A stretch of DNA of 51,816 nt from Phycisphaeraceae bacterium. Its GTDB lineage: Bacteria > Planctomycetota > Phycisphaerae > Phycisphaerales > Phycisphaeraceae. A model generated the notes under the pieces. It was given only the letters and a program-made list of their open reading frames with translations. It ran no database searches and was not told the origin of the DNA. Shown here in pieces: positions 5,928-43,928 of this stretch (position 1 is the stretch's first letter; the number at the start of each line of letters is the position of its first letter). The position numbers were made by a program, and so were the translations under genes. The stretch spans positions 1 to 51,816 of the forward strand of contig JAJDCU010000003.1 of the NCBI GenBank assembly GCA_029260655.1, given 5' to 3'.

Positions 5928-5943
5928 GCGAAGGGATGCGGCC

Positions 5944-6486: not shown

Positions 6487-6498
6487 GGAACACAGCGA

Positions 6499-20810: not shown

Positions 20811-21521
20811 TTAGGGTCTGCTCCGCCTGTATTCTCCGTGGTGCTTACGGCGTCTTAGCAAGGTTGTCAGGCCCAGCCCAAGCAGCGTCAGGCTGGCCGG
20901 CTCGGGGGCCTGTGTGAACGTCACGTTCAACGTCAGGGCCTTCTTGTCGATCAACGCCGCGTCGGCCGGGGCGTTGGCTGACGCGATCAGGGTGTTGTCC
21001 AGGTTGATCTGCACCTGGGTGACGTGCAGACCGCTGAGGTCGATGCTCGCCACACCAGACCAAACCCCCGAACCTGTTCCCATCAGCGGCATGAGCGGAT
21101 CAATCACGATCGTGTCGCTGACGAACCCCCCAAGAAGGGGGTTAAGAATCGTAGCCACCACAGTCCCTCCCGCGGTGACCTTTGACGTGTTTCCAAGCAT
21201 TAGGAAATCGCCGATCTCATCGAGGCTAATCGATTCTATGAACAGGCCCGGGTCGGCCTGGATAATGAATGAAAGTTGGCCCGAGGTGACGTCCGCGCCG
21301 ACCCCGGCCTGCGCCGCGGCGAACGGCCCGGTCGAGAAGGTCAGCGAATTGCCCACCACGGTCGGGTCGCCGAACAGCGGCCCGGGGTCGGGCGTGGACG
21401 ACTCCACGAGGTTGGATACCGTTCCTTCAACCAGGTTGTAGATCGTGGCCGCTTCTGCGGTCTCGTGCGTGAAGATCAACACCCCGGCACATATCAATCC
21501 CACCAAAGGCCTACACAACAT
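20811..21521 (-). CDS. PEP-CTERM sorting-signal protein
   Basis: 236 residues from the ATG at 21521, which has AGGAG upstream; an earlier in-frame ATG at 21608 would spoil the signal peptide. The N-terminus is a signal peptide ending AEA. The body is Thr/Ser/Gly/Asp-rich and beta-like. The C-terminus is PEPASLTLLGLGL followed by TTLLRRRK: the PEP motif, a helix and a basic tail that mark sorting by exosortase to the envelope or matrix. No exosortase is in the window. A hairpin with U-tract sits in its leader. Confidence 0.88.
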   Translation of the reverse strand: MLCRPLVGLICAGVLIFTHETAEAATIYNLVEGTVSNLVESSTPDPGPLFGDPTVVGNSLTFSTGPFAAAQAGVGADVTSGQLSFIIQADPGLFIESISLDEIGDFLMLGNTSKVTAGGTVVATILNPLLGGFVSDTIVIDPLMPLMGTGSGVWSGVASIDLSGLHVTQVQINLDNTLIASANAPADAALIDKKALTLNVTFTQAPEPASLTLLGLGLTTLLRRRKHHGEYRRSRP

Positions 21522-21580
21522 CCTCTGCTCTCCTGGAAAAAACCCCTGCTTCGCTTGGCAGAACAAAAAACCGGCGCACG

Positions 21581-21615
21581 AAAAAGGAGAGTGCGGACTT
21601 GGGTCCACTCTCTCC
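21581..21615 (-). terminator. Terminator-like hairpin upstream of the PEP-CTERM gene
   Basis: On the plus strand GGAGAGTGCGGAC (21586-21598) faces GTCCACTCTCTCC (21603-21615) across a TTGG loop, pairing at 11 of 13 positions. An A5 run at 21581-21585 gives a U-tract on the minus strand. It may end a transcript from the right or act as an attenuator, since it lies only 60 bases before the PEP-CTERM start. Confidence 0.6.
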
Positions 21616-22073: not shown

Positions 22074-24077
22074 TCATTCCTCAGCAACCAGCCCCGCATT
22101 GACCTGATGGACCCTCTTTGGGTCCGTGATACTGTTTAGCAGCACATTCATGGTGTGGAATCGGCCTAAGTCGACCTGGTGGGCTGCCGCAGGCTTGGCC
22201 GAGTCTGGGTCCAACTCGGCTAGCCGGCCGTCACGCAGGCAGATGGTCACCGTGCCGTCGAAGAAGCGTAGGCCGTCGCCGGTACGGTCGAGTTTGCACG
22301 GAGCCCCATCGATTCGGCCAAGCAGAGACAACCCGTCCTGCCCGGTCACGACCAGGAACCCGTCGTGCGGGGCCCCTTCGTCGAGCGACTTTTGGCTGCC
22401 GAAGAAGCTCGGTTTCTTGATGTACGGCCCGTCGTACTCCGGGCAGAACGTGTCGCAGTTGCCGCAGCGGTTGCAGTAATCCGCAAAGTTGGCGATCTGC
22501 TGGGTCCGCTCGACCTTGAAGGTCTTGGCGTCATCAGCTTCGGCGACCGTCCCGTCGGGTGACACCGTCACATCCCGGTATGTCAGATCAACCTTGGGCG
22601 TCTCGTACAGGAAGTTGGCGTCGTTGGGGCAGACCGGGATGCACTTGTTGCAAGTCACGCAGTCGAACACCACCAGGTGCGAGTTGATCCGCTTGGGGAT
22701 CATCTGGTTCTTCGCCTGGGTGTAGCGTTTGTCGGCCTGCGCCTCTTTGACGATTTCGGGCGTGTTGAGGAACCCAGCGAGCACAGGGTCGCCGCCGGCT
22801 TCGTCGCTGTGGCCTCGTGCTTTGAGGATATATTCGCCGATCGTCTCCGCCCCGGCCTTGGTCATCGTGGCGACCAGATCACCTAAATACCCCGGCAGAC
22901 GTGCGTACCCCCCGGGCTTAAGCAGGTCCGTGCAGGTCGTGATCGGCGCAAACCCGCAGGCGACCATGTTCGGGAAGTTTTTACGGTCCACACCGGCAGA
23001 GAACGTGATCGGCATCGCGTGGCCCATCGCCTGGCGGAACTCATTGGCCAGCGTCAGCGAGATCATGTGCAGCGGCGTCCCCGAGAGGTACATCACCTTG
23101 TTGTCGGGCGTGAAGAAATCCTTGTGATTCACCACCTCCAGCGTGTTCGAGAACTTCGCCCCGAAGGACCGCCCGTTAGATTTTGCTACCGACGTCAGCC
23201 GTTGGCATATCCCAACCGCGTCATCGAACAAAACCCCGCTGGTGTACGCCTCGGGGCTGACCTTGACTTCGTGGAAGCCCATCACGCCGTGAAGCAGGTG
23301 TTCCAGCCGCTCTTTGCCGAGCATCGGGGGGTTCATCTTGACGATGACGTCGACCCCGATCTCGGTCAGCAGGAACTCACAGATCCGCTCGATCTCGTCG
23401 GCCGGGCAGCCGTGGAAGGTCGAAAGCGTGATGCTGCTGCTCAGCCGGGTGGGGTAATCCAGGTCGCGCAGGTGCTTGAGGCGGCCCGGGAGTTGGTCCC
23501 GCAGCGCGTTGATGTCAGCCGTCGCGTCGAGCATCCCATCCAGGAACCGCCGGACCGGGGGGGACTGGATGCCCTTGAGGTCGTACCCGACGGACATGTC
23601 AAACAGCGTCTCGCCGCCCGGGCCGTCCATCGGGGACTCCCCGAACGGGTGGCCGAAGGTCTGGGGGCTGCTGCGGAGCATGTGGATGAGCATCGCGCCC
23701 TGAACGTACTGGTCCAGCGACTCGCCTAGGCGCAGCTCCTGGGACCACTCGACGTTGTACCCGACGTTGGTTGCGTCGATGCAGGGCCTGGGGATATCCA
23801 GCCGGTCGTCGATCTGCACGGTCTTGAGCTCGAGGATCCGTGACCCTGCCAGCCAGGCGAGCACCAGGTTCTGGGCCATCTGTGTCTGGGGCCCCGCCGC
23901 TGGCCCGACCGGGTTGCCCGCCTTGCGGCCGTGGAACGTCACCGACAGGTCCGGCCCGTCCGGCGAAGGGACGAACCACTTCTTGGCGGGAAGGTCGAAC
24001 AGGCTCGATCGGGTCTGGTATTCCAGACGCATGCGGTCGATCAGGTCCACAAACGGTGTGCAATAGAGGTCAACCAT
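22074..24077 (-). CDS. ygfK: YgfK-like oxidoreductase, short form
   Basis: 667 residues. The N-terminal two thirds resemble a dihydroorotate/dihydropyrimidine-dehydrogenase-like flavin barrel (GNPVGPAAGPQTQMAQN, STFHGCPADEIE). Two ferredoxin-type clusters follow: C473/C476/C479/C483 and C535/C538/C541/C545. The name ygfK comes from the putative selenate reductase subunit of E. coli, whose gene lies with ssnA and xdhD. That protein is about 1030 residues and, as I recall, carries an FAD/NAD(P)-binding domain before the clusters; here it is absent. The gene is divergent from the PLP enzyme genes and likely supplies or accepts electrons in purine-derived substrate reduction. Electron donor unknown. 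Confidence 0.85.
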   Translation of the reverse strand: MVDLYCTPFVDLIDRMRLEYQTRSSLFDLPAKKWFVPSPDGPDLSVTFHGRKAGNPVGPAAGPQTQMAQNLVLAWLAGSRILELKTVQIDDRLDIPRPCIDATNVGYNVEWSQELRLGESLDQYVQGAMLIHMLRSSPQTFGHPFGESPMDGPGGETLFDMSVGYDLKGIQSPPVRRFLDGMLDATADINALRDQLPGRLKHLRDLDYPTRLSSSITLSTFHGCPADEIERICEFLLTEIGVDVIVKMNPPMLGKERLEHLLHGVMGFHEVKVSPEAYTSGVLFDDAVGICQRLTSVAKSNGRSFGAKFSNTLEVVNHKDFFTPDNKVMYLSGTPLHMISLTLANEFRQAMGHAMPITFSAGVDRKNFPNMVACGFAPITTCTDLLKPGGYARLPGYLGDLVATMTKAGAETIGEYILKARGHSDEAGGDPVLAGFLNTPEIVKEAQADKRYTQAKNQMIPKRINSHLVVFDCVTCNKCIPVCPNDANFLYETPKVDLTYRDVTVSPDGTVAEADDAKTFKVERTQQIANFADYCNRCGNCDTFCPEYDGPYIKKPSFFGSQKSLDEGAPHDGFLVVTGQDGLSLLGRIDGAPCKLDRTGDGLRFFDGTVTICLRDGRLAELDPDSAKPAAAHQVDLGRFHTMNVLLNSITDPKRVHQVNAGLVAEE

Positions 24078-24238
24078 GATGTTTAGTTATGGGTCCTACA
24101 GGTCAAAAGTGTTGGCTGGTGCAACCCTATAGCGTAATCGACAATCCCCTAATGACCAACAGATTTGTTTCAGTTAAATAAGTAGGGGTAGGTAGAATAG
24201 GCCCCGCGCGGTACAATGGTCGTTTTGGGATTTACCGG
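24078..24238. promoter_or_regulatory. Divergent control region between ygfK and the PLP-enzyme operon
   Basis: 161 bases, AT-richer than the flanks, must contain the promoters of both sides. I see TAGAAT and TACAAT -10-like hexamers on the plus strand but no well-spaced -35 partner, so no promoter is assigned exactly. Confidence 0.35.
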
Positions 24239-25522
24239 ATGACGGCATACCTGACGGGATATACCTGCGTCGTCTGCGACCGCTCGTTTGAGCCCGGCGC
24301 GCTGCGAATGACCTGCCCGGACTGCGGGCCGGATGAGGGGATCCTGGATGTCAACTACGACCTGAACGCGGTGCGCGCCGCTTGGGAGAAGTCGCCGCTG
24401 GCGGGCCGGCCGCTGAATCATTGGCGTTACCGGGAGCTGCTGCCGCTTGAAGATTCGGCCGTACGCGACGACTGGTCCGTCGGCTGGACCCCGGTGATCG
24501 ACGCATCCAGGCTCGCCAAAGACCTGGGCCTTCAGCAATTGCTGCTCAAGGACGAGGGCCGCAATCCCACCGCATCGTTCAAGGACCGCGCCAGCTCGGT
24601 CGGGGTCGCCCATGCCCTCCAGCACGGTGCCGGGACGATCGCCTGTGCCTCGACCGGCAACGCCGCGACCAGCCTCGCCGGGCACGCCGCGCTCGCCGGG
24701 ATGCCCTGTGTGATCTTCGTCCCGCACACCGCGCCCGAGCCCAAGCTCGCCCAGCTACTGGTCTTCGGCGCCGCCGTGATCTCGGTGCAGGGCAGCTACG
24801 ACCAGGCCTACCAACTTTGCTCGCAGGCCTGTGAGAAGTTCGGCTGGTACAACCGCAACTGCGCGATCAACCCCGTCCTGGTCGAGGGCAAGAAGACCGG
24901 CGGGCTCGAGGTCGCCGAGCAGAGCCACACGTTTGGCGGCGTCCCGGACTGGGTCGCCATCAGCGTCGGCGACGGCTGCACGATCGCCGGGATATGGAAG
25001 GGGCTCAAGCAGATGCACGCATTGGGTGTGATCGACCGGCTGCCGCGTCTGTTGGGCGTGCAGGCCAGGGGCGTCGCGCCGATCGCATACGCACTCGAAA
25101 AGGGAAAGATGCCGCCGGTGGACGATACCGGAGCCACCATCGCCGACAGCATCAACGTCGCGGTCCCACGCAACTGGCGCAAGGCGGTCAACGCGCTCAA
25201 GGACGCCGACGGCGTGGTCGTCTGCGTTAATGACGATCAGATCCTCGAAGCGATGCGCATCTCAGGCCGTCACGGGGTATACGCCGAGCCCGCGGCGGCG
25301 GCGGCACTGGCGGGCGTGAAGGCAGCGATCGCGGATGGGATAATCTCCGGGGGTCAATCCGGGGGCGGGGGCGATCGCGTGCTGGCGATGGTGACAGGCA
25401 GCGGGCTGAAGGACACACACGCCGCGATCCGGGCCGGCGGCGAACCGATTAAGATAAAGCCAAGTATAGATAACCTGGCATCGGCCCTGGCCGGCCGAGG
25501 CCTGACAGACGGAGTAAGTTGA
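24239..25522 (+). CDS. Threonine-synthase-like PLP enzyme with zinc ribbon
   Basis: 427 residues. A zinc ribbon opens the protein (C10, C13, C26, C29). LKDEGRNPTASFKDRASS carries the PLP lysine in the ThrC-style SFKDR motif, and ASTGNAATSLAGHAA is the substrate loop. Typical ThrC converts O-phosphohomoserine to threonine. The position inside a purine-catabolism cluster, first in a plus-strand operon with a second PLP enzyme and ssnA, suggests a catabolic beta-elimination or ammonia-lyase role instead, in the place taken by ygeX (diaminopropionate ammonia-lyase) in other clusters. This is inference; a plain threonine synthase remains possible. Confidence 0.8.
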   Translation: MTAYLTGYTCVVCDRSFEPGALRMTCPDCGPDEGILDVNYDLNAVRAAWEKSPLAGRPLNHWRYRELLPLEDSAVRDDWSVGWTPVIDASRLAKDLGLQQLLLKDEGRNPTASFKDRASSVGVAHALQHGAGTIACASTGNAATSLAGHAALAGMPCVIFVPHTAPEPKLAQLLVFGAAVISVQGSYDQAYQLCSQACEKFGWYNRNCAINPVLVEGKKTGGLEVAEQSHTFGGVPDWVAISVGDGCTIAGIWKGLKQMHALGVIDRLPRLLGVQARGVAPIAYALEKGKMPPVDDTGATIADSINVAVPRNWRKAVNALKDADGVVVCVNDDQILEAMRISGRHGVYAEPAAAAALAGVKAAIADGIISGGQSGGGGDRVLAMVTGSGLKDTHAAIRAGGEPIKIKPSIDNLASALAGRGLTDGVS

Positions 25523-26973
25523 TGCAGGTGAATCAAGAGGTGTTAGACCGAACCATCAAGCAGTGCCGAGACCGCAAGGTGTTGCTGCCGACCTTCGCGC
25601 AGATGCGCGACCCCTCGCTGGTCCCTAAGAAGGTCAAGGATCGGCTCAAGCAGGTGGGGCTGTGGGATGTCGATCCCGTAAACCTCTTCCGCATCTCCTG
25701 GAAGAACGAGCCGACCGAGAAGGGCGGGCTGTACAACAACGGCAACTTCGTCGAGTTCCCCCCCGAGCTGACCGGGGTGGACGCCACCATCGTCGGGATC
25801 GTCGGCAAGTATTTCCCGACCGGCGCGCACAAGGTCGGCGCGGCTTACGGCTGCCTTGCGCCCCGCCTGGTCACCGGGGAGTTTGACCTGACCCGGAACA
25901 AGGCCGTCTGGCCCAGCACCGGCAACTACTGCCGCGGCGGCGCGTTCGACTCGGCGCTCCTGGGCTGCGACGCCGTCGCCATCCTCCCCGAGGAGATGAG
26001 CCGGGAACGCTTCGACTGGCTTAAAGGCATCTGCTCGGAGGTCATCGCCACCCCCGGCTGCGAATCCAATGTCAAGGAGATTTACGACAAGTGCTGGGAG
26101 ATAAAAAACACCCGCCCCGAGTGCGTGATCTTCAACCAGTTCGAGGAGTTCGGCAACCCGACCTGGCACTACCACGTCACCGGGTCGATCATCCAGGAAA
26201 TCTTCGAGTCGTTGGGCAACGACCGGAGGCTGTCCGGGTACGTCTCTGCGACCGGCAGCGCCGGCACGATTGCGGCGGGAGATTTCCTGCGGACAAAGCA
26301 TCCTCAGGTGCGTGTCGTCGCCACCGAGGCCTTGCAGTGCCCGACCCTCTACCAGTTCGGCTTCGGCGGGCACCGGATCGAAGGCATCGGCGATAAGCAC
26401 GTCCCCTGGGTCCACAACGTCCGAAATACCGACATGATCTCTGCGATCGACGACGAGCAGTGCATGTCGCTATTGCGTCTGTTCAACGAGCCGGCCGGTC
26501 AGTCATATCTGAGGGCAAGCGTTTCTGATGAGCTCGCCGATCAACTGCCGCTGCTGGGCGTATCGAGCATCTGCAACCTGGTTGCCGCGATCAAGACCGC
26601 CAGGCACTACGACATGGATGGCCGGGATGTCATCTTCACATGCCTGACCGATTCGGCGGGGATGTACGAGAGCCGGCTCAGCGAGTTGTCCGATGAGCGC
26701 GGCGGCTACGACCGCGACCATGCGATCGCCGACCGGGCCCGATACCTCGATGGCGTCGTCACCGATCACCTCCGCGAATTGACCTACCAGGACCGAAAGG
26801 CCCTGCACAACTTCAAGTACTTCACCTGGGTCGAGCAGCAGGGCCGGACGATCGACGAGCTAAACCAACTGTGGGACCCGGACTTCTGGACGAAGACGTT
26901 TACGCAGGCAAGTGAATGGGACAAGCTGATAGAGTCGTTCAACGAGCAGACGGGCGTGCTGGGGGATCTTTAA
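25522..26973 (+). CDS. PLP-dependent enzyme of the cysteine-synthase/tryptophan-synthase-beta fold family
   Basis: 483 residues from ATG 25522, which overlaps the TGA of the upstream gene (TGATG) and has GGAG seven bases upstream. FPTGAHKVGAAYG holds the likely PLP lysine and WPSTGNYCRGGAFDSALLG the substrate loop; ATGSAGTIAAGDFLR binds the PLP phosphate. Longer than cysteine synthase, with an added C-terminal helical region. Substrate unknown. Pairing with the threonine-synthase-like gene and with ssnA suggests handling of an amino acid formed during purine ring breakdown, such as a diaminopropionate-like compound; this is inference. Confidence 0.78.
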   Translation: MQVNQEVLDRTIKQCRDRKVLLPTFAQMRDPSLVPKKVKDRLKQVGLWDVDPVNLFRISWKNEPTEKGGLYNNGNFVEFPPELTGVDATIVGIVGKYFPTGAHKVGAAYGCLAPRLVTGEFDLTRNKAVWPSTGNYCRGGAFDSALLGCDAVAILPEEMSRERFDWLKGICSEVIATPGCESNVKEIYDKCWEIKNTRPECVIFNQFEEFGNPTWHYHVTGSIIQEIFESLGNDRRLSGYVSATGSAGTIAAGDFLRTKHPQVRVVATEALQCPTLYQFGFGGHRIEGIGDKHVPWVHNVRNTDMISAIDDEQCMSLLRLFNEPAGQSYLRASVSDELADQLPLLGVSSICNLVAAIKTARHYDMDGRDVIFTCLTDSAGMYESRLSELSDERGGYDRDHAIADRARYLDGVVTDHLRELTYQDRKALHNFKYFTWVEQQGRTIDELNQLWDPDFWTKTFTQASEWDKLIESFNEQTGVLGDL

Positions 26974-28295
26974 TGGGAACCGTCTTTCAAAACGCGATTC
27001 TGGTTCAACTGGATCCGCCGAAGGTCGAGCACGGCGGCCTGCGTGTGTCAGATGGGAAGATCGTCGCGGTGGGCAAGGGTGTATCGCCCGAGCCGGGGGA
27101 CGATGTCATCGATTGCGGCGGCGCTGTGCTCATGCCGGGACTGGTTAACGGGCACACGCACCTGTACTCGGCCTTGGCCGCCGGGATGCCCGCTGCGCCG
27201 AAGACGCCGACGAACTTTTACGAGATACTGAAATACATCTGGTGGCGGCTGGACCGCGCCCACGACGTCCAGAGTATCCGCGCAAGCGGGCAGATCGGGG
27301 CGCTGGCGGCGCTGCGTTGCGGGACGACGACGCTGATCGACCACCATGCTTCACCGGACGCGATTGAAGGGAGCCTCTCGGAACTGGAAGGGGGGATCGC
27401 CGAGGCCGGCTGCCGGGGCGTGCTCTGCTACGAAACCACCGACCGTAACCACCCGGACGAGGCCCGACGCGGACTCGACGAGAATGAGCGTTTTGTCCTG
27501 CTCTGCCAAAAGCGTGACAACGGCCGGTTCGCCGCGATGGTCGGGGCACACGCGAGCTTCACACTCAACGACGACTCGCTCGCCGGCTGCGCGGACCTCG
27601 CAAAAGAACTGGGCGTCGGCGTCCACATCCACGTCGCGGAAGACCCCTGCGACGAAGCGATGACCAAGGCGGGCTACGGCAGCAATCTTTTTGACCGCTT
27701 CACCCAGCACGGCCTGCTCGACATCCCCGGCACGATCTTCGCCCACGGAACACACCTGTCCGAAGCCGACATCGACGTCGTCAACCAGTGTGACACAATC
27801 ACGATGGCGCACAACACCAACTCGAACATGAATAACGGTGTGGGCTACGCCCCGGTCGCCAAGTTCAAGAGACCCCCGATGCTCGGGACCGACGGGATCG
27901 GCGCCGACATGTGGCGCGAAGCACGCACCGCCCAATTTAAGAGCCACGACGGCCAACTACCGCTACCGTTTGGCCGACCGCTTGACATGATCGGCGAGTC
28001 CGCACGCTTCGCTTCCAAGTGCCTGGGCGTCAAGCTCGGCCTGCTCGAGCCCGGCGCCGAAGCCGACCTCGTCCTCACTCGCTACGTCCCCGCAACCCCG
28101 CTGAGCGCCGACAACCTCGCAGGCCACATGATCTACGCCATGGGCCCCGAGTTCGTATCCGACGTCATGATCGGCGGCGTCTGGAAACTAAGAAGCGGGG
28201 CGGTCGTAAGCTGTGATGAGGTGGCGATCCGGGCGCAGAGCGCCGAGATAGCCAGGGGGCTTCACGAAAGAATGAGCGAGATCAGTTGCGACTGA
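26973..28295 (+). CDS. ssnA: SsnA-type amidohydrolase/chlorohydrolase family enzyme
   Basis: 440 residues, matching SsnA length, when started at the ATG at 26973 that overlaps the previous stop (TAATG). Metal ligands are seen in GLVNGHTHLYSAL near residue 60, HIHVAED near 215, HGTHL and the Asp of LGTDGIGADM. The amidohydrolase fold hydrolyses C-N bonds such as those of ring-opened or deaminated purines. In gut bacteria ssnA is part of the gene set linked to anaerobic urate use. Its 3-prime end overlaps the convergent yqeA end by 14 bases. Confidence 0.87.
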   Translation: MGTVFQNAILVQLDPPKVEHGGLRVSDGKIVAVGKGVSPEPGDDVIDCGGAVLMPGLVNGHTHLYSALAAGMPAAPKTPTNFYEILKYIWWRLDRAHDVQSIRASGQIGALAALRCGTTTLIDHHASPDAIEGSLSELEGGIAEAGCRGVLCYETTDRNHPDEARRGLDENERFVLLCQKRDNGRFAAMVGAHASFTLNDDSLAGCADLAKELGVGVHIHVAEDPCDEAMTKAGYGSNLFDRFTQHGLLDIPGTIFAHGTHLSEADIDVVNQCDTITMAHNTNSNMNNGVGYAPVAKFKRPPMLGTDGIGADMWREARTAQFKSHDGQLPLPFGRPLDMIGESARFASKCLGVKLGLLEPGAEADLVLTRYVPATPLSADNLAGHMIYAMGPEFVSDVMIGGVWKLRSGAVVSCDEVAIRAQSAEIARGLHERMSEISCD

Positions 28296-29241
28296 TCCGC
28301 GTCCCACTTTTTCCATCCAGTGCGGCGGTGAGTTGGGGAAGCTCGGCGATGATCGCCACCGCGTCGGGGTTGCTGGAACCTTCCACAAAATCCACCGCCG
28401 CTTCGATCTTCGGGCCCATCGAGCCCTCGGCGAAGTGACCCTCTTTCAGATAAGCCTTCGCTTCGCTGATCGTCAGTGTGTCCAGCGCCTTCTGGTCCGG
28501 CTTGCCGAAGTTCAGGCAGACTTGTTCGACGGCGGTCAGGATCACAAGCGTGTCGGCGTTGAGCTTTCGTGCAAGCAGCGCGGAGGTGCGGTCCTTGTCG
28601 ATCACGGCCGCGGCACCACGGAGCATGCCGTGCTCATCTCGGGTCACAGGCACGCCGCCGCCGCCGCAGCAGATGACCAGTTCGCCATCGTCGACCAGCC
28701 GGCGGATCGTGTTCAGTTCGATGATTTCCTTAGGGATCGGCGACGGGACGATCCGGCGGTAGATGCCGTCCGTAACCTCCACGATAGACCAGCCGTCCTT
28801 GTCCCGATGAGTCTCGGCCTGATCCCTGGGCATCTGCGAACCGATCGGCTTGGTCGGCCGCCTGAATGCTGGATCGCTCTTATCGACCAGGACGTTGGTC
28901 ACCAGCGTCGTGACATCGGTTTCGAGCCCGCGCTTCTTCAGCGCGTTAACCATGCACTGGCCGATCATGTAGCCCATCCCTGCCTGGGTATCGGCAACGC
29001 AGACCTCAAGAGGCAGGGGGTACATCTCACTGGACGCAAGCTCGACCCGCCGCAGCACATTCCCGACCTGGGGCCCGTTGCCGTGGGTGATCACGATGTT
29101 CCGGCCGTCCGCCATCGCACCGGTCAGGTACCGCGCAGTATCGGACATGTGCGCGAACTGCTGGGGGATGTTCCCCTGCTCCCCGGGCACACTGATGGCG
29201 TTGCCCCCCAGGGCGATTACGGTTGGTCTGACGTTAGCCAT
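28282..29241 (-). CDS. yqeA: Carbamate kinase
   Basis: 319 residues from the ATG at 29241; an in-frame start at 29274 adds 11 residues inside the preceding terminator. Motifs are VIALGGNAI at the N-terminus, ITHGNGPQVGN, and VICCGGGGVPV, with FAEGSMGPKIEAA near the end, all standard for ArcC-like carbamate kinases. It makes ATP and carbamate from carbamoyl phosphate and ADP. In this locus it probably gains energy from carbamoyl groups released by the YgeW step. A terminator separates it from ygeW, so it may have its own promoter or depend on read-through. Confidence 0.92.
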   Translation of the reverse strand: MANVRPTVIALGGNAISVPGEQGNIPQQFAHMSDTARYLTGAMADGRNIVITHGNGPQVGNVLRRVELASSEMYPLPLEVCVADTQAGMGYMIGQCMVNALKKRGLETDVTTLVTNVLVDKSDPAFRRPTKPIGSQMPRDQAETHRDKDGWSIVEVTDGIYRRIVPSPIPKEIIELNTIRRLVDDGELVICCGGGGVPVTRDEHGMLRGAAAVIDKDRTSALLARKLNADTLVILTAVEQVCLNFGKPDQKALDTLTISEAKAYLKEGHFAEGSMGPKIEAAVDFVEGSSNPDAVAIIAELPQLTAALDGKSGTRISRN

Positions 29242-29256
29242 AGTTAGAAACCAAGT

Positions 29257-29290
29257 AAAAAACCGCAGGGGCATGTGCGCCTCTGCGGTT
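29257..29290 (-). terminator. Intrinsic terminator or attenuator between ygeW and yqeA
   Basis: AACCGCAG (29261-29268) pairs with CTGCGGTT (29283-29290). The A-run 29257-29262 gives a U6 tract on the minus strand, partly inside the stem base. It lies 18 bases after the ygeW stop and only 16 bases before the yqeA start. Confidence 0.75.
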
Positions 29291-29307
29291 GCTGTTTATC
29301 TTAATCC

Positions 29308-30345
29308 TTAGAACGGCCGTTCGCGCATCGTGCACGCCATGATCGCTTTGGCGGTGTGCAGGCGGTTCTCGGCTTCTTGGAAGACGATGGACTGTGGGCC
29401 GTCGATCACGGCATCCGTCACCTCTGCATCGCGGTCGGCGGGCAGGCAGTGCATGTAGACGGCAGACTTCTTCGCCAAGCCCATGCGGCGCTCGTCACAG
29501 ATCCAGTCCTTGTGCTTGTGGTTCATCTCTAAACAAGCCTGCTGGTTCGCGTCGATCTCGGCCTTGGTCGTGGCGTTCTGGCGTTCGAGCATCAGTTCGT
29601 AGACGCCCCAGCTCTTGGGATAGACGATATCGGCATCGGCGAAGGCGGCGTCCATGTCGTCGACGATCTCGAACGACCCGCCGGACTCTTTGGCGTTGGC
29701 TTTGGCCGATTCCACCGTGCGGTTGATCAGGTTGTAGCCCTCGGGGTGTGCCAGAGAAACATGCATCCCGAAGCGCGTCATCAAGGTGATCAATCCCTGC
29801 GGCACGCTAAGCGGCTTGGCGTAGGACGGCGCAAACGCCCAGGTGACGGCGATCTTCAGGCCCTGGACGTTGTCCTTGCCGAAGTGTTCGCGGATGGTCA
29901 TGATGTCGGCCAATGTCTGGGTCGGGTGGTCGACGTCGCACTGCATGTTGATGATCGGGACGTTGCACGCCGCCGCCATCTCACGCATGTACTTGTTGCC
30001 CTCATCCAGGACCAGGTCGTGGCGGACACAGATCCCGTGGCCCATCGCGGCCAGGATCTTGCCGGTGTCGGCCGGGGTTTCGCCGTGGCTGATCTGGGTG
30101 ACATCGGCGTCCAGGAAGTGCGCGTGCCCGCCGAGCTGGGTCATCCCCGCCTCGAAGGCGTTGCGCGTCCGCGTGGACTTATCAAAAAACAACAGGTACG
30201 CGGTCTGGTTATTCAACACGACCGTCGGCTCGCCGCGGTGAAACTTGGCTTTCAGCTCGTCCGAGGTTTCCAGTAGCAGGTTCAATTCGGCCAGGCTCAG
30301 GTCCTGGGTCTCGATGTAGTCTTTTCCTTTGAGGCTCGTCGTCAT
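29308..30345 (-). CDS. ygeW: YgeW-type carbamoyltransferase-like protein
   Basis: 345 residues. FFDKSTRTRNAFEAG is the STRTR phosphate loop of the carbamoyltransferase family, QCDVDHPTQTLADIMT is the carbamoyl-phosphate and dimer stretch, and YMHCLPADRD is the substrate loop. The pattern is that of the YgeW branch, close to ornithine and acetylornithine carbamoyltransferases but of unclear amino substrate. It probably runs in the phosphorolytic direction, giving carbamoyl phosphate for YqeA. It lies 8 bases after ygeY and shares its transcript. Confidence 0.9.
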   Translation of the reverse strand: MTTSLKGKDYIETQDLSLAELNLLLETSDELKAKFHRGEPTVVLNNQTAYLLFFDKSTRTRNAFEAGMTQLGGHAHFLDADVTQISHGETPADTGKILAAMGHGICVRHDLVLDEGNKYMREMAAACNVPIINMQCDVDHPTQTLADIMTIREHFGKDNVQGLKIAVTWAFAPSYAKPLSVPQGLITLMTRFGMHVSLAHPEGYNLINRTVESAKANAKESGGSFEIVDDMDAAFADADIVYPKSWGVYELMLERQNATTKAEIDANQQACLEMNHKHKDWICDERRMGLAKKSAVYMHCLPADRDAEVTDAVIDGPQSIVFQEAENRLHTAKAIMACTMRERPF

Positions 30346-30353
30346 CTGTTTAC

Positions 30354-31619
30354 TTAACCTTTCCTTCGCTTGACATTCATCTTGGTTTTGTTGGGTCGTT
30401 TAGCTGCCAGGTCGCAGTACGCCTCGCCGAACCCGGCGTAAAACGCGGCGCACTTGACCAGGTGGTCGATCGGGACAGAGTCGTTGACGGTGTGGGCGAC
30501 GTTCTCCGGGGCCGGCCCGAACCCGACGCAGGGGATCCCGTACATCCCAGCGATAGACACGGCGTTGGTGCTGAACGTCCAGCGGTGCAGCGTCGGGGCA
30601 ACGCCCAACACATCTCGGTGGGCCTTCACCGCCGCCTGGACCTGGAGCGCATCTTCCGGCTCGCACCAGGTCGGGAAGTATTTTTCGGTCTCGTAGGTCA
30701 GCCCCGTGTAGCTCGGTCGGGCGTAGCGCAGGACCTCGACCTTGGCCTTGACCCCGGCCCGCTTGACGGCGTCCTTCACTTCACGGACCGCGGACGCTTT
30801 GGTGTCCCCGACAGTCAGCCGGCGGTCCAGGTGGATGAACGCCTCACCCGGGACGGCACACATACTCGGGGTCTTGCAATCGACGTAGCTGACAGTGATC
30901 GTCCCCTTGCCCAGGAACTTGTCGGCCTTGAGCCGCTTGTTGAGTTTCTCGATCTCGTTGGCGACCTTGGCGATCTTGTAGATGGCGTTGTCGCCCTTGT
31001 GGGGCATCGAGCCGTGGCAGGATTTGCCCTTGGCGGTCACGCCGATCTCCATCCGCCCGCGGTGGCCCCGAAGGATCCAGCAGTTGGTCGAGTCGGTGAC
31101 GACCACGGCGTCCGGCTTGATCTTGTCCTCGTTGACGATGTACTGCCAGCACAGCCCGTCGCAGTCTTCCTCCATCACGGTGAAGACCACCAGCAGGTAG
31201 TATTCGGACATATCCAACTTTAGATCACGCATGATCTTTCCGGCGTAGACCATGGCGGGGACGGCCCCTTCCTGGTCGCCTGCGCCCCGGCCCCAAACCT
31301 TGCCGTCCGCGACTTTGCCCTTATAGGGGTCGTGTTTCCACTCCGAGCGGTCCCCGACGCCGACGGTGTCGACGTGGGCGTCGATGGCGATCAACTTCTT
31401 GCCTTTGCCGGGTTTGCCGACCTGGCCGAAGAGATTGCCCATCTTATCGGACCATATCTTGTCGAAAGCCCCGGTGGCTTTCATTTCCTGCTTGATACGG
31501 GCGATGACCTTGCCCTCCTCGGCTGACTCCGAGGGGATAGCGATCATGTCCCGCAGGAAGCGGATCATTCGGGGTTTATATTTTTGGGCTTGAGTAACGA
31601 ATCGGGAGGTTTGGGGCAT
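30354..31619 (-). CDS. ygeY: YgeY-type M20-family metallohydrolase
   Basis: 421 residues. Metal ligands appear in AIDAHVDTVGVGD, GRGAGDQEGA and the Glu pair of TVMEEDCDG, the standard M20/M28 two-zinc site; a lid domain lies in the middle (about 205-320). The YgeY group is classed as a putative selenium-metabolism hydrolase by old association, but newer work on gut bacteria places it in urate breakdown. It likely hydrolyses an amide or carbamoylated intermediate ahead of YgeW. First gene of the minus unit that starts in the divergent region before xdhD. Confidence 0.88.
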   Translation of the reverse strand: MPQTSRFVTQAQKYKPRMIRFLRDMIAIPSESAEEGKVIARIKQEMKATGAFDKIWSDKMGNLFGQVGKPGKGKKLIAIDAHVDTVGVGDRSEWKHDPYKGKVADGKVWGRGAGDQEGAVPAMVYAGKIMRDLKLDMSEYYLLVVFTVMEEDCDGLCWQYIVNEDKIKPDAVVVTDSTNCWILRGHRGRMEIGVTAKGKSCHGSMPHKGDNAIYKIAKVANEIEKLNKRLKADKFLGKGTITVSYVDCKTPSMCAVPGEAFIHLDRRLTVGDTKASAVREVKDAVKRAGVKAKVEVLRYARPSYTGLTYETEKYFPTWCEPEDALQVQAAVKAHRDVLGVAPTLHRWTFSTNAVSIAGMYGIPCVGFGPAPENVAHTVNDSVPIDHLVKCAAFYAGFGEAYCDLAAKRPNKTKMNVKRRKG

Positions 31620-31655
31620 AGACGTGTTTTTATACCAGACATGGGCTATGTCACA

Positions 31656-31682
31656 AAGCGAAATATTCTCGAAGTTTCGCTT
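31656..31682. promoter_or_regulatory. 8-bp perfect inverted repeat in the ygeY/xdhD divergent region
   Basis: AAGCGAAA at 31656-31663 and TTTCGCTT at 31675-31682 are perfect inverted copies around an 11-base spacer. The place between two divergent genes of one pathway fits an operator for a shared regulator. No regulator gene is next to it. A second palindrome lies 50 bases to the right. Confidence 0.45.
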
Positions 31683-31730
31683 GGTGATATTGGCCTCACC
31701 GGCGACAATGGGGATTGGTGGAAGGATAGT

Positions 31731-31743
31731 CCGGCTAAGCCGG
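31731..31743. promoter_or_regulatory. Palindrome CCGGCT-A-AGCCGG upstream of xdhD
   Basis: Thirteen-base palindrome with 6-base arms around one A, 74 bases before the xdhD ATG. It could be a second operator half or a small hairpin; chance occurrence in GC-rich DNA is possible. Confidence 0.3.
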
Positions 31744-31816
31744 GCACGAGTTGGCCACTTGTATCAAGAAAAAAACCGGGATCGCAGGCTTTAGAGCCGC
31801 GCGGAGGCCAACCGTT

Positions 31817-34477
31817 ATGAGTACATTGTCTCGTATGTCCGCCACGACCCAGACTTTGCGCTGCAACGTCAACGGCGAGCCGGTCTCGGTCGATCTCGTC
31901 GACGACGGGCTTACCTTGCTGGATGTCCTGCGCGACCACCTGGGCATCACCTCGCCCAAGAACGGCTGCCAGCCCCAGGCCCAGTGCGGCTGCTGCACGG
32001 TCCTGGTCGATGGCAAACCGATGATGTCCTGCACCATGAAGCCCAGCCGGGTCCAGGGCAAGACGGTGACGACCCTTGAGGGGCTTGACGAGGAACATCG
32101 CAAGCAGATCGCGGATAGCTTTGTGCAATGCGGCGGCGTGCAGTGCGGGTTCTGCATCCCGGGCTTCGCCATGCGGGGCGTGGGGCTGTGCACTAAGAAC
32201 CCGAATCCCAGCCGGGATGAGATCACCAAGGCCGTCCGCCCGCACCTGTGCCGCTGCACGGGCTACAAACAGGTCATCGACAGCATCGAACTCTACAGCA
32301 AGGTCCGCGAGGGCACAGTGGCGCCCACGCCCAACGAGGCCGACGGTTCGGGCAAGGTCGGGACCAGCCTTAAGCGTTACTCCGGGCACGATGCCGTGCT
32401 GGGCGACCGCAAGTATGTTGACGACATGACCGTCGCGGGCATGCTCTTTGGGGCGCTTCGTCTGGCGGATCATCCCCGGGCGACGGTGGTGAGCGTCGAC
32501 GCGAGCAAGGCCCTGGCGTTGGAAGGTGTGCATCGGGTGGTGACGGCCAAGGACGTCCCCGGCGAAATCTACGTCGGGCTGATCGAACGCGATTGGCCGG
32601 TCTTCGTTCCCCCGGGCCAGGACACCCGCTGCACCGGGGATGTGATCGCCGCCGTGGTCGCAGACAGTCAGCGTCTGGCACGACAGGCCGCCGAGCTGAT
32701 CGACATTGAATACATCGTCAAAGAACCCGTCACCGATCCGGTTAAGGCGCTTGAGCCCGGCTCGCCTTTGGTCCATCCCGAGCGCGGGACGAACCTGCTC
32801 AACGAGTCGAGTCTGAAAAAGGGCGACGCCGAAGCCGCGTTTGCTCAATGCGCCCACGTCATCGAAGACACCTACCGGACCCAGCACATCGAGCACATGT
32901 TCCTTGAGCCCGAGGCCTGCATCGTGGTCCCCACCGACACCGACAACGGCCGGACGCTGAAGGTCTACAGCCAGGGCCAGGGCGTGTTCGACGACCGCCG
33001 ACAGATTGCATCGTTACTGAACGTCGACCAGGACAACATCGAGGTTGCTTTGGTCAGCAACGGTGGGGCGTTCGGCGGCAAAGAGGACATGTCCGTCCAG
33101 GGCCAGACCGCGCTGCTGGCCTTCCTCACCGGCAAGCCGGTCAAGACCACGCTCACCCGACCGGAGAGCTTCCGCATCCACGTCAAGCGTCACCCGATCA
33201 CACTGACTTACAAGATCGGCTGCGACGCCGACGGCCACATCCTTGCGGTCAAGGCGAACATCATCGGTGACAAGGGCGCGTACGCCTCTGTCGGCGCGAA
33301 AGTCCTCGAACGGGCGGGCGGTCACTGCACCGGGCCGTATCGCGTGCCGAATATCGACATGCACACCAAGGCTGTCTACACCAACAACCCGCCGTGCGGC
33401 GCGATGCGAGGCTTTGGCGCGAACCAGGCGGCGTTCGCCATCGAGGGCCTGCTCGACCGGCTCGCGGAGAAGTGCGGGATCGACGGCTACGACATCCGCG
33501 ACCGGAACATCCTGGAGCTCGGCGACGCCTTCGCCACCGGACAGATCCTCGACAAAGCTTTCGGCCTGCGGCGCACCCTCGAAGCGGTCAAGGACCAATA
33601 CAAGAGCGCCAAGTACGCCGGGATCGCCTGCGGGATCAAGAACGTCGGCCTGGGCAACGGCATGCCCGACATCGGACGCGCCGCGATCACGGTGGAAGAT
33701 GAGAACACCCTGCACATCCGAACCGGGTTCACCGAGATGGGCCAGGGGCTGTTTACCCTCTGCATCCAGTTCGCACACGAAGCGACCGGGCTGGCTCCGG
33801 AACTGTTCAGGTGCTCGACCGATACGACACTCAAGCTCGATTGCGGACAGACCACCGCCAGCAGGGCCACGGTCCTGGCCGGCAACGCCATCGCGGAGGT
33901 CGGCAAGACGCTCAAGGCGCAACTGGATCAAGGCAAGACGCTCAAGGACCTTGTCGGGCAAGTCTTCCAGGGCGAGTGGCGCTGCGACTACACCAGCAAG
34001 CTCGGCAAGGATATGGACAAGCCCGGCGGGCCTAAGACGCACATCACCTACGGCTTCGCCACGCAGGTCGCCATCCTTGACGACGACGGCGCGCTGAAGA
34101 AGATGATCGCCTGCCACGATGTCGGCCGGGTCATCAACCCCACGCAACTGAAGGGTCAGATGTACGGCTCGCTGCACATGGGCATCGGCTACGCCCTGAC
34201 CGAAGATTTCGAGGTTGAGGGGGCGGAGATCCAGGCCAAGAAGATCAACGACTGCGGCGTTCTGCGGGCGCATCAGATGCCGGAGATGGAGCTGATGTTC
34301 ATCGAAGAGCCCGACCCCGAGTGCCCGTTCGGCGCACGCGGCGTCGGCGAGATCGGTCTGGTTCCCACCGCGCCCGCCATCGCCGGTGCGATGTATCAGT
34401 TCGACAAGATCGTCCGTCGGAAACTCCCGATGACCGATTCGCCCGCCGGCAAAGCCATTCAAAAGCCCAAGCGTTGA
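31817..34477 (+). CDS. xdhD: Fused iron-sulfur/molybdenum hydroxylase, XdhD type
   Basis: 886 residues from the ATG at 31817 with GGAGG nine bases upstream. The N-terminal ferredoxin-like domain has NGCQPQAQCGCCTV (C51, C57, C60) and the second [2Fe-2S] domain has CGGVQCGFC and RCTGY. The molybdenum domain follows from about residue 190, with GGAFGGKE, AMRGFGANQ and GARGVGEIGLVPTAP, whose Glu is the expected base. FeS and Mo domains are in one chain and the FAD domain is absent, as in XdhD of E. coli, a probable purine hydroxylase. The mocA-like gene next to it suggests a cytosine dinucleotide cofactor. Likely substrates are hypoxanthine, xanthine or relatives; not proven by sequence. Confidence 0.9.
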   Translation: MSTLSRMSATTQTLRCNVNGEPVSVDLVDDGLTLLDVLRDHLGITSPKNGCQPQAQCGCCTVLVDGKPMMSCTMKPSRVQGKTVTTLEGLDEEHRKQIADSFVQCGGVQCGFCIPGFAMRGVGLCTKNPNPSRDEITKAVRPHLCRCTGYKQVIDSIELYSKVREGTVAPTPNEADGSGKVGTSLKRYSGHDAVLGDRKYVDDMTVAGMLFGALRLADHPRATVVSVDASKALALEGVHRVVTAKDVPGEIYVGLIERDWPVFVPPGQDTRCTGDVIAAVVADSQRLARQAAELIDIEYIVKEPVTDPVKALEPGSPLVHPERGTNLLNESSLKKGDAEAAFAQCAHVIEDTYRTQHIEHMFLEPEACIVVPTDTDNGRTLKVYSQGQGVFDDRRQIASLLNVDQDNIEVALVSNGGAFGGKEDMSVQGQTALLAFLTGKPVKTTLTRPESFRIHVKRHPITLTYKIGCDADGHILAVKANIIGDKGAYASVGAKVLERAGGHCTGPYRVPNIDMHTKAVYTNNPPCGAMRGFGANQAAFAIEGLLDRLAEKCGIDGYDIRDRNILELGDAFATGQILDKAFGLRRTLEAVKDQYKSAKYAGIACGIKNVGLGNGMPDIGRAAITVEDENTLHIRTGFTEMGQGLFTLCIQFAHEATGLAPELFRCSTDTTLKLDCGQTTASRATVLAGNAIAEVGKTLKAQLDQGKTLKDLVGQVFQGEWRCDYTSKLGKDMDKPGGPKTHITYGFATQVAILDDDGALKKMIACHDVGRVINPTQLKGQMYGSLHMGIGYALTEDFEVEGAEIQAKKINDCGVLRAHQMPEMELMFIEEPDPECPFGARGVGEIGLVPTAPAIAGAMYQFDKIVRRKLPMTDSPAGKAIQKPKR

Positions 34478-34534
34478 GGTCTACCCCTATGCCGCACGCT
34501 GTGTAGCTGCGGCGGGTTTTAGCCAGGCCACGCC

Positions 34535-35152
34535 ATGCCCAGCATCCACGCCATCATCCCCGCCGCCGGCCGGTCGAGCCGAATGGGTCGGCCCAAGCAA
34601 TTGATGGAAGTAGCCGGCCGGCCGATGCTGCTTGCGGTGGTCGAGCCGATCGCCATGTGCCCGGCTGTTACCGCAGCGGTCATCGTGACCAACAGCATGG
34701 TCGCCTCATCCTTTGAACTGGCCGGGCCTAAGCTCAGCGTCGTACTCAACGACGAACCCGACGCCGAGATGATCGACTCGGTCAGACTGGGCGTGGTTCA
34801 GCTTCAGCGTGAGCACGACTTGGCCCCGGATGACGGCATCTTGATCTGCCCGGGGGATCAACCGGGGTTGACCACCGACGACATCGCACGCTGCTGCCAG
34901 GCCTTCGCGCAGACGCCCGGGAAGATCATCATCGCCGCGCACGACGGCAAGCGGGGCCATCCGATGATCTTCCCCGCGTCGATGATCCCATACGTCATGT
35001 CTAACGCCTGCGACGTTGGGTTACGAGAACTGCCTCAGGCGCACGAGGGCCGAGTTGTTACAACCGAACTTCCGAGCCCCGCGATTGTCCGTAACATTAA
35101 TACGCCGGAAGACTATCGCGGCCTGTCACGTGCGCCAGAACCACACTCATAA
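34535..35152 (+). CDS. mocA: MocA/MobA-like molybdenum cofactor nucleotidyltransferase
   Basis: 205 residues. IIPAAGRSSRMGRPKQLMEV is the nucleotide-binding N-terminus of the MobA-like family, ICPGDQPGL is the Mg-binding Asp motif, and GHPMIFP follows. MocA adds CMP to molybdopterin for hydroxylases of the xanthine dehydrogenase family, which fits its place 57 bases after xdhD. The gene symbol is by family; a YgfJ-type name would also fit. Its stop abuts the stop of the convergent sigma-factor gene. Confidence 0.85.
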   Translation: MPSIHAIIPAAGRSSRMGRPKQLMEVAGRPMLLAVVEPIAMCPAVTAAVIVTNSMVASSFELAGPKLSVVLNDEPDAEMIDSVRLGVVQLQREHDLAPDDGILICPGDQPGLTTDDIARCCQAFAQTPGKIIIAAHDGKRGHPMIFPASMIPYVMSNACDVGLRELPQAHEGRVVTTELPSPAIVRNINTPEDYRGLSRAPEPHS

Positions 35153-36676
35153 TCAACCCGGATCCTGCCTGTTCGCCGACTGCACAAACTCTTGTCTCGG
35201 CTCCGCCAGCCACTGGAATATGTTTGCCAGATAATCGCCCTGGTAGGCAGTGTGACGGAAGATCCCTTCGGGGCTTAAGACATTTAGAACGATCACCCGG
35301 CCGCGACCGAGTTCGCCGACAACCAGGGCGGGTATCCGCATCGCCGAAACCGCCATGGAATGTATCAGATCGTTTGGCTCGGAGATATCGTTGCGCGTCA
35401 TGAGTATCTCGGCTCCACGGACAGGTTTATATAAGGGCCCGCAACCGCTGACCAGGAATGTTGTGCCCGCAGAGATTCCGGGGAAGGCGGGGTGACGCTT
35501 GTGATAGGTTGCCCACCGTGGCGAGATGCACGGGGTGGCGTGGCTGAAGCCTATCTCCGACCGGGACAGCATAAGCCGGCGCATGCGCGGATCGCTCATA
35601 TCTGTCGTGAGTTGCGAAGTGAAGTGTTCGTTGTACAGCCCGACCCCTTGGCTGACGGCGCTTGCGGTCGCCTCCAAAGCGGCGGTGGATGTCGCGTAGC
35701 TCCAACCCAGATAGATAGCATCCAGCGAAAGAAGTGAGTCGACGTCCGTGATATCAATCAGGCCTGCGGTGATGCCATAATCTCGCAGTGTGCGTTCGAT
35801 CGGCGCGTGGGCCGAGGTCCCAGGTTCAACCAGACCCACGTACTGAAACCCCATGCCGGATGAGAATTTGAGCGTCTTGACCTGGTACTCCACGGGCATA
35901 TGCCAACCGTCAAAGTTCGGCGTAAAAATGGACTGGTAGCTCAGATACACACCGACGCGGATCGGCCGGGACCAGCCCGGGAGGCAGTCCGATGTAGGTG
36001 TGCGGATACGGTGAGTATCGTCTTGCGGAGCCGTGTGCCAGTCCGCCCCAAGCCGCAGACCGCCACCGTCGTCATCGTTTTCGCCGATCGCCTGACCGGC
36101 CTCCATCAGGCAGGCGCTGAGCGTGTCCGAGTCCAGTGAATCGATCCCCATGTCTCGCAGCACCGCGCCCAGATCCCCGACAGCCCTCTGTACATGTCGG
36201 CTGATCGTCGCCACAGAGACATCCCGGATCCCCGCGATCACCCGCATCGGCATGTTGTATAGGAAGCAAGCCTGCAGAAGTGTCCGTGACGGCTCGTCCA
36301 GGCAACCCAGCGCCTCGGGGAGCCGGTGGCGCGCCATCTGCCGGGCGAGCGCACGCTGTGTGTCTGGCCCCGGATGATGTGAGAAGCTCTCGATCCGAGA
36401 GCGCTCTCGGCCCTGCTTGCGGATGATGTCCACGCACGCCGTGTAGGCAACCCTGTGCAGCCACGGCATCAGATTGTGAATCTTGTCAGCCTGAAGCGCC
36501 AGTTTCGTGAAAGTCTCCTGCACCGCGTCATCGATATCGTCGCGGCTGACCAGATGACGCCGGCACACCGACACCACCAATGGCCGAAACGCCTCCATCA
36601 GCGCCTCAAACGACTTGGGGTCACGATCCTGTACGTATCGGCGCAGATGATCTTGATGCATGGTGATGGACCGCAC
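35153..36676 (-). CDS. ECF-type sigma factor fused to a possible glutamine-amidotransferase/ThuA-like domain
   Basis: 507 residues. Sigma region 2 covers about residues 25-90 (DDIDDAVQETFTKLAL, MPWLHRVAYTACVDIIRK). Region 4 covers about 120-180, with an HTH around ISRHVQRAV. A Gly/Asp-rich linker leads to a C-terminal domain of about 270 residues beginning RVGVYLSYQSIF, with alternating strands, LVVGELGRGRVIVLN and GDYLANIFQWLAEP near the end. That pattern recalls ThuA/class I amidotransferase-like folds, but I see no nucleophile Cys elbow, so it is probably a sensor. Start may be GTG 36676 or ATG 36661; neither has a good ribosome site. No anti-sigma gene is adjacent. The fold call is tentative. 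Confidence 0.75.
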   Translation of the reverse strand: MRSITMHQDHLRRYVQDRDPKSFEALMEAFRPLVVSVCRRHLVSRDDIDDAVQETFTKLALQADKIHNLMPWLHRVAYTACVDIIRKQGRERSRIESFSHHPGPDTQRALARQMARHRLPEALGCLDEPSRTLLQACFLYNMPMRVIAGIRDVSVATISRHVQRAVGDLGAVLRDMGIDSLDSDTLSACLMEAGQAIGENDDDGGGLRLGADWHTAPQDDTHRIRTPTSDCLPGWSRPIRVGVYLSYQSIFTPNFDGWHMPVEYQVKTLKFSSGMGFQYVGLVEPGTSAHAPIERTLRDYGITAGLIDITDVDSLLSLDAIYLGWSYATSTAALEATASAVSQGVGLYNEHFTSQLTTDMSDPRMRRLMLSRSEIGFSHATPCISPRWATYHKRHPAFPGISAGTTFLVSGCGPLYKPVRGAEILMTRNDISEPNDLIHSMAVSAMRIPALVVGELGRGRVIVLNVLSPEGIFRHTAYQGDYLANIFQWLAEPRQEFVQSANRQDPG

Positions 36677-39593: not shown

Positions 39594-39636
39594 CGGGGTA
39601 TCCTTGCAAAAAACCGTGTCTAGGGTGTCGGAGTTA

Positions 39637-41610: not shown

Positions 41611-41622
41611 CGTGAGTCCTAC

Positions 41623-42204
41623 TTATCCCTTGAGAGGGTGCTTGCCCAGATACTTGGCGATGTCGAAGTCAACGAAGTCGGCGTGGTGGAAGATGATCGA
41701 TTCGATCGTCCGCTCGACCTTGTCGCCCTCGTGGCTGTGGGTCGCGACGATATGCATGACCTCGGCGGGGATCCCGTGCTTGTAGCACATCGCCACGCCG
41801 CTGAATGGGTGCCGAAGCATCTCTCCGAAGTGGCCCTTGACCAGCTTGTCGTCTGCGTCACGGTCGAACTCCAGCGGCTTGCCCACGTCTGCCAGCATCG
41901 CCCCGGCGATGAGGACGTCCTTGTTCACCGGGATCTTCCCGGCGTAGATCGTCGTCAACGTGTCGGCGATCACGATGCACTGTCGGATGCAGGAGTTGAG
42001 GTGTTCGATGAAGCGCAGGTCGATGTCGCCTGCCAGCAGCGTGAACGGGATCGCGCGGAGTTCGTCGAACTTCCAGCCCTTGCCCCCCGCGCCGGTCTCG
42101 ATCGCCTCGGACCACACGGTCGCAACCTTGTCACGTAAGCCGGCGTCGGTGATGGCGGTGATGTCTGGGAATAGTTCCGCGATTTGATCAGCGGTGTACG
42201 GCAT
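41623..42204 (-). CDS. HD-superfamily-like protein with an altered HD doublet
   Basis: 193 residues, soluble. The helical layout, an early His (H68), and a later His-rich block (H132, H143, H151, H156, H158) resemble HD-domain metal phosphohydrolases. At the place of the HD doublet the sequence reads MLADVGKP, so the His is replaced by Ala105 and only Asp106 remains. Metal binding may be changed or lost. The gene sits 3 bases after the citryl-CoA-lyase-like gene and 12 bases before the aconitase gene, so it is a fixed part of this operon, but no reaction can be assigned. Confidence 0.75.
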   Translation of the reverse strand: MPYTADQIAELFPDITAITDAGLRDKVATVWSEAIETGAGGKGWKFDELRAIPFTLLAGDIDLRFIEHLNSCIRQCIVIADTLTTIYAGKIPVNKDVLIAGAMLADVGKPLEFDRDADDKLVKGHFGEMLRHPFSGVAMCYKHGIPAEVMHIVATHSHEGDKVERTIESIIFHHADFVDFDIAKYLGKHPLKG

Positions 42205-42207
42205 CGG

Positions 42208-43925: not shown

Positions 43926-43928
43926 GAC

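Follow-up and report, generated by a model that had tools for sequence, protein, structure and literature searches.

The locus at positions 22074 to 35152 of the window, as we call the whole stretch of 51,816 nucleotides analyzed here, appears to encode a variant of the reductive urate pathway, in which a threonine synthase-like (ThrC-like) PLP enzyme, P0001, is most likely the terminal lyase and a cysteine synthase-like (CysK-like) protein, P0002, would be a second pathway-specific PLP enzyme. We hold this reading with moderate confidence. The pathway itself, which runs without oxygen and occurs in gut bacteria, is already known (PMC12507026, PMC12990295), with its genomic linkage described earlier (PMC2276186), and was worked out only in 2025; our verdict is that the locus represents a widespread new variant of it, with putative enzyme assignments.

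The window belongs to contig C3 of a 3.52-Mb assembly that is 95% complete, and the nearest relatives by the locus genes are Phycisphaerae (Planctomycetota) MAGs. Profile matches place the following genes at the locus:

22074..24077, minus strand: short-form YgfK (TIGR03315, 393.2 bits, cut-off 835.3, residues 7 to 405 only; Fer4 matches at 456 to 554)
24239..25522, plus strand: ThrC-like P0001, a fold-type II PLP enzyme (separate clade, clade-specific residues, ThrC fold)
25522..26973, plus strand: CysK-like P0002, a fold-type II PLP enzyme with N- and C-terminal extensions (ATG at 25522)
26973..28295, plus strand: SsnA aminohydrolase (NF005540, 394.8 bits, cut-off 444; TIGR03314, 380.6 bits; ATG at 26973)
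28282..29274, minus strand: carbamate kinase, YqeA/ArcC (TIGR00746, 355.4 bits, cut-off 358.25; NF009007, 337.2 bits, over the cut-off)
29308..30345, minus strand: YgeW-like carbamoyltransferase (best family YgeW, 312.9 bits, cut-off 453; next ornithine carbamoyltransferase, 240)
30354..31619, minus strand: YgeY M20 hydrolase (NF009555, 528.6 bits, curated cut-off 321)
31751..34477, plus strand: XdhD-like single-chain molybdenum hydroxylase (TIGR03311, 928.1 bits, cut-off 830.5; Pfam domains)
34535..35152, plus strand: MocA-like molybdenum cofactor cytidylyltransferase (best family TIGR03310, 121.7 bits, cut-off 186.5)

The genes are arranged in divergent operons, with ygfK (minus strand) set against thrC-like, cysK-like, and ssnA (plus strand), and arcC, ygeW, and ygeY (minus strand) set against xdhD and mocA (plus strand). 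The original prediction had described a urate- or purine-type cluster with the named genes sitting together, and all of them are indeed found here. YgeY and the hydroxylase, the latter with the Se-type XDH profile, pass their curated cut-offs, while SsnA has the right family as its best match, yet is below both of its curated cut-offs, and YgeW, YgfK, and MocA are likewise best-matching families under theirs. The features of reductive urate degradation that are present are SsnA, an XdhD-type hydroxylase and a short YgfK linked to ssnA, and YgeW with YgeY; the cluster contains neither HyuA nor an FAD subunit (YgfM). The plus-strand genes overlap by a single base, with TGATG at 25520-25524 between thrC-like and cysK-like and TAATG at 26971-26975 between cysK-like and ssnA, which makes cotranslation of both PLP genes with ssnA very probable. 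Two related MAGs (L037 and L038) keep the same gene order with orthologues that are 83% (ThrC-like) and 88% (CysK-like) identical, which by sequence comparison identifies the two PLP genes as real, conserved genes.

Around the locus, the window encodes a weak PEP-CTERM-type exported protein (20811-21608, minus strand) and, adjoining mocA, a 507-residue protein with an N-terminal ECF sigma-70 domain and a long C-terminal extension (35153-36676, minus strand). Positions 38481-45479 (minus strand) and 3957-7506 (plus strand), taken together, hold citryl-CoA lyase-like, SucC/SucD-like ligase subunit, homoaconitase-like, and isocitrate-dehydrogenase-like genes, which form a single run, and genes for subunits of a 2-oxoacid:ferredoxin oxidoreductase, also on contig C3; a reductive TCA cycle of the citryl-CoA synthetase/lyase type is possible in this Phycisphaerae-like genome.

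The absence of ygeX, originally noted for the locus, holds for the window and for the whole genome, where no protein passes the YgeX profile NF006058 (cut-off 276 bits) and the best match, a threonine dehydratase, reaches 45.5 bits. The genome carries a guanine deaminase, a multisubunit XDH, an XdhC-like protein, and an adenine deaminase on contig C40, and a reductive pyrimidine set with a dihydropyrimidinase over the TIGR02033 cut-off and an NCS2 permease on contig C28. Since deaminases and XDH are present and no PF01014 uricase was found in the genome, its predicted enzymes can take purines to urate, for which the window offers a reductive exit.

Both reductases differ from their E. coli counterparts. 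YgfK has 667 residues here versus 1,032 in E. coli, and the parts that match are the reductase domain, in the first 400 residues, and an Fe-S region, while the GltD-like flavin/NAD domain is absent. A frameshift as the cause was ruled out by a relative with a similar open frame of 692 residues. Short YgfK proteins lacking the flavin/NAD domain recur in other genomes, including Planctomycetota, Verrucomicrobia, Elusimicrobia, and SAR324, in open frames of about 585 to 745 residues. The XdhD-like protein has 2Fe-2S and Mo domains and no FAD subunit. Because YgfK lacks the GltD-like domain and the cluster lacks YgfM, NADH may not be the electron donor for either reduction, as has been suggested for Clostridium difficile (PMC12507026). 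Selenium dependence of the hydroxylase system was rejected, as a homology search of the genome (95% complete) turned up no SelD beyond a partial match of 21 bits to the E. coli protein.

That P0001 and P0002 simply serve threonine and cysteine synthesis and lie here by chance is hardly credible. P0001 does exceed the TIGR00260 cut-off (195.8 versus 167 bits), and P0002 stays well under the curated CysK cut-off (97.7 versus 351 bits), but two other ThrC proteins of the genome (on contigs C50 and C16) both score above P0001, with 279.8 and 248.7 bits, and the linkage of the pair to the pathway recurs in many phyla. In a tree of 79 proteins, built by a short search and containing some long branches, the pathway-linked ThrC-like clade is split from 19 outgroup ThrC sequences, including both other ThrC proteins of the genome and E. 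coli ThrC, with an SH-aLRT of 98, which places P0001 outside the biosynthetic ThrC clade. The pathway clade has its own residues, with A118 in 57 of 58 members and A142, R206, K218, and D245 in all 58, where the outgroup mostly has Gly, Thr, hydrophobic residues, Gln, and Asn or Gly. With two other ThrC in the genome, a separate clade, and its own active-site residues, P0001 does not look biosynthetic, and neither does P0002; the tree, the residues, and the further ThrC copies led us to reject ordinary thrC and cysK genes.

Position 214 is Arg in 14 of the 19 outgroup ThrC and Thr or Leu in the pathway clade. We take this Arg to be that of the ThrC NPxRxEGQKT motif, which contacts the substrate phosphate in ThrC structures; our literature search returned no usable paper on ThrC phosphate-binding residues or YgeX catalytic residues. 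As the phosphate-contacting Arg is lost in its clade, the substrate of P0001 is likely nonphosphorylated. The P0001 structure model (pLDDT 88.7) has the ThrC fold and resembles threonine synthase (PDB ID 1uim, 2zsj, and 6nmx) at about 36% identity, differing at the five invariant or nearly invariant clade positions and in the loss of the NPxR Arg. YgeX (PDB ID 4d9m) shares fold type II, with an alignment that spans most of P0001 at 21% identity, but P0001 is far under the YgeX family cut-off and the active-site motifs differ.

The P0002 model (pLDDT 86.3) adopts the CysK fold, with Z scores of about 33 to CysK-type enzymes. The fold-type II PLP fold is kept, and K105 aligns to the PLP (Schiff-base) lysine of CysK. 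Cysteine synthase/O-ureidoserine synthase (CysK; PDB ID 3x43) shares the core fold, the PLP lysine, and the Gln-Phe motif, whereas P0002 is only 20 to 25% identical, has about 160 extra residues, and carries an altered loop, STGNYCRGG, in which Cys138 and Arg139 are invariant. The gene lies immediately upstream of HyuA at two loci (L070 and L082), which hints that P0002 acts at a step near hydantoin opening.

The relation of the two enzymes to YgeX was examined in 50 P0002-bearing genomes, searched in full together with the source genome. The ThrC-like clade occurs in 41 of the 43 genomes lacking YgeX versus 3 of the 7 with YgeX over the cut-off (Fisher P = 0.002, in a set chosen by CysK-like presence and with related genomes treated as independent). 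The four YgeX genomes without the ThrC-like clade are labeled Acidobacteria, Aminicenantes, Bacteroidetes, and SAR324, and the other three (G209, G211, and G246) have YgeX, ThrC-like, and CysK-like together. The exchange is also positional: four Bacteroidota loci (L061, L072, L081, and L088) share the operon YgfK-CysK-ThrC-Xdh, and a fifth (L090) reads YgfK-CysK-YgeX, with YgeX in the exact ThrC-like slot and CysK-like staying in place. This argues that the ThrC-like enzyme performs the YgeX step and P0002 another one. Because the CysK-like enzyme accompanies either lyase, it is, by this gene distribution, not simply a YgeX substitute. Of the original proposal that two PLP enzymes stand in place of ygeX, the part concerning the ThrC-like protein stands, as it alternates with YgeX, and the part concerning the CysK-like protein, which occurs with both, does not; joint replacement is thereby weakened. 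The expectation that the late steps may differ from the known route agrees with the comparative data, which point to a different last-step enzyme.

A scan of 84,980 species genomes confirmed at least 593 P0002 relatives, the best 80 of which belong to Planctomycetota, Elusimicrobiota, Bacteroidota, Acidobacteriota, Spirochaetota, Verrucomicrobiota, Pseudomonadota, and others. The commonest pathway neighbor at these best 80 loci is ThrC-like (39, adjacent in 27), followed by Xdh (32), YgfK (31), SsnA (27), YgeW and YgeY (21 each), HyuA (8), and YgeX (3), all counts being lower bounds since many contigs are short. SsnA, used as a marker for the reductive urate pathway in PMC12507026, is found at an E value of ≤1e-55 in 50 of 51 CysK-like-bearing genomes, and YgeW over its cut-off in 27 of the 50 P0002 genomes, with weaker matches in more. 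Among 199 Planctomycetota, 16 have a strong SsnA (≥320 bits), and 14 of these have the CysK-like gene (Fisher P = 2e-13, again treating related genomes as independent); of the remaining two, G197 has YgeX and G123 is 59% complete. YgeX occurs in 3 of the 199, none with the CysK-like gene. ThrC-like matches of at least 260 bits occur in 14, all CysK-like positive, and 10 of the 24 CysK-like-positive Planctomycetota have no such match. These comparisons indicate that the YgeX-less cluster is a variant across many phyla, mostly environmental, and not a peculiarity of one locus; as the same PLP pair recurs in many phyla, it looks like a widespread, unrecognized version of the urate pathway.

A separate function for Elusimicrobiota CysK-like loci without pathway neighbors was considered and rejected, as their neighbors are unrelated genes and those genomes carry SsnA and ThrC-like, and most also YgeW, elsewhere. 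Three loci from Elusimicrobia and Cryosericum (L077, 15501-17890; L062, 7333-9595; L186, 858-4070) carry a carbamate kinase and a pair of YgeW-like carbamoyltransferases, adjacent or close to one another, near a ThrC-like or CysK-like gene; such paired enzymes might recover both carbamoyl groups as carbamoyl phosphate. In Spirochaete genomes, a second, weaker SsnA-like amidohydrolase adjoins ThrC-like or YgeW (L169, 6553-7938; L183, 4844).

What is observed is which genes are present and co-occur, that the operon genes overlap, and that YgeX can take the ThrC-like slot; the reactions proposed here are inferred, and their order is modeled on chemistry demonstrated in E. coli and Clostridium. 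Urate would be reduced by the XdhD-like enzyme, the ring dearomatized by the short YgfK, and the pyrimidine ring opened by SsnA. The hydantoin would be opened by a hydantoinase encoded outside the cluster, the dihydropyrimidinase on contig C28 being a candidate. YgeW and carbamate kinase would remove one carbamoyl group with a gain of ATP, and YgeY the second, to yield 2,3-diaminopropionate. The final ammonia-lyase reaction, catalyzed elsewhere by YgeX, would most likely fall to the ThrC-like enzyme, and the CysK-like protein would act on a C3 ureido or amino acid; our leading guess is a racemase or a lyase for the other isomer. The three genomes carrying YgeX alongside both PLP genes, the 10 of 24 CysK-like-positive Planctomycetota with no ThrC-like match of at least 260 bits, the two YgeX-less genomes of 43 without ThrC-like, the cluster without HyuA, and the YgeW and SsnA scores under their cut-offs count against this scheme. 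We entertain, as a tentative and rather doubtful extension, that the PLP reaction catalyzed by the CysK-like enzyme is one foreign to the E. coli pathway (e.g., racemization or beta-elimination of albizziin), with ureido acids bypassing the YgeW-YgeY-YgeX sequence in what would be the prevalent environmental anaerobic urate route.

The two enzymes might instead act as a pair on one compound, dividing the D- and L-isomers or a two-step cleavage between them and so jointly replacing a nonstereospecific YgeX. YgeX is reported to be active on both isomers (PMC12507026), and the two genes are adjacent in 27 of the best 80 loci (of at least 593) and overlap in the window, but the CysK-like gene also occurs with YgeX, where a second lyase is unnecessary, and we consider this unlikely. 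It is quite unlikely, too, that diaminopropionate is cleaved by the CysK-like enzyme, leaving the ThrC-like one with some other reaction, e.g., racemization. The intact PLP lysine and the tighter conservation of the CysK-like family (mean column identity of 67% versus 50%) speak for it; against it, 7 of the 50 genomes bearing CysK-like also have YgeX (ThrC-like being absent from four), it is ThrC-like that alternates with YgeX, in position too, and in profile comparison the ThrC-like family aligns to YgeX and the CysK-like family does not. Finally, the heterocycle that the cluster breaks down could be a purine other than urate or a hydantoin, the late steps being unchanged. XDH homologues differ in the substrates they accept, and several Elusimicrobiota and other genomes have YgeW, YgeY, ArcC, ThrC-like, and CysK-like without the YgfK N-terminal match, but the near-constant presence of SsnA and, in the source genome, the urate-from-purine genes with no PF01014 uricase make this very unlikely.

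With the ThrC-like enzyme as the putative lyase and the CysK-like enzyme at another step, two protein families gain a proposed, testable role that would explain how clusters in Planctomycetota, Bacteroidota, Elusimicrobiota, and others do without YgeX and that bears on how ureido groups are removed, in which order and with what stereochemistry. Our search of open-access papers found no description of the exchange of YgeX for ThrC-like or CysK-like proteins. Replacement of YgfK and YgeW is described in PMC12507026, that of YgeX is not, and the distribution given there used the broad Pfam family PF00291 to count YgeX, a family that covers YgeX, ThrC-like, and CysK-like alike and cannot tell them apart.

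The E. coli cluster xdhD-ygfM-ygfK-ssnA-hyuA-ygeW-yqeA-ygeY-ygeX (PMC12507026) has homologues of XdhD, YgfK, SsnA, YgeW, carbamate kinase, YgeY, and MocA in common with the window, whereas the window cluster lacks YgeX, YgfM, and HyuA, adds the ThrC-like and CysK-like genes, and has a short YgfK. In E. coli, a GltD-like domain forms part of YgfK, and XdhD is paired with an FAD partner; the window cluster has neither. The C. difficile uricolytic cluster (UacX, UacY; PMC12507026) likewise has single enzymes swapped for unrelated ones and a reductase without the NAD(P)H flavin domain, like the YgfK of the window, but there YgfK and YgeW are the enzymes replaced and YgeX is retained, whereas the window cluster replaces YgeX.
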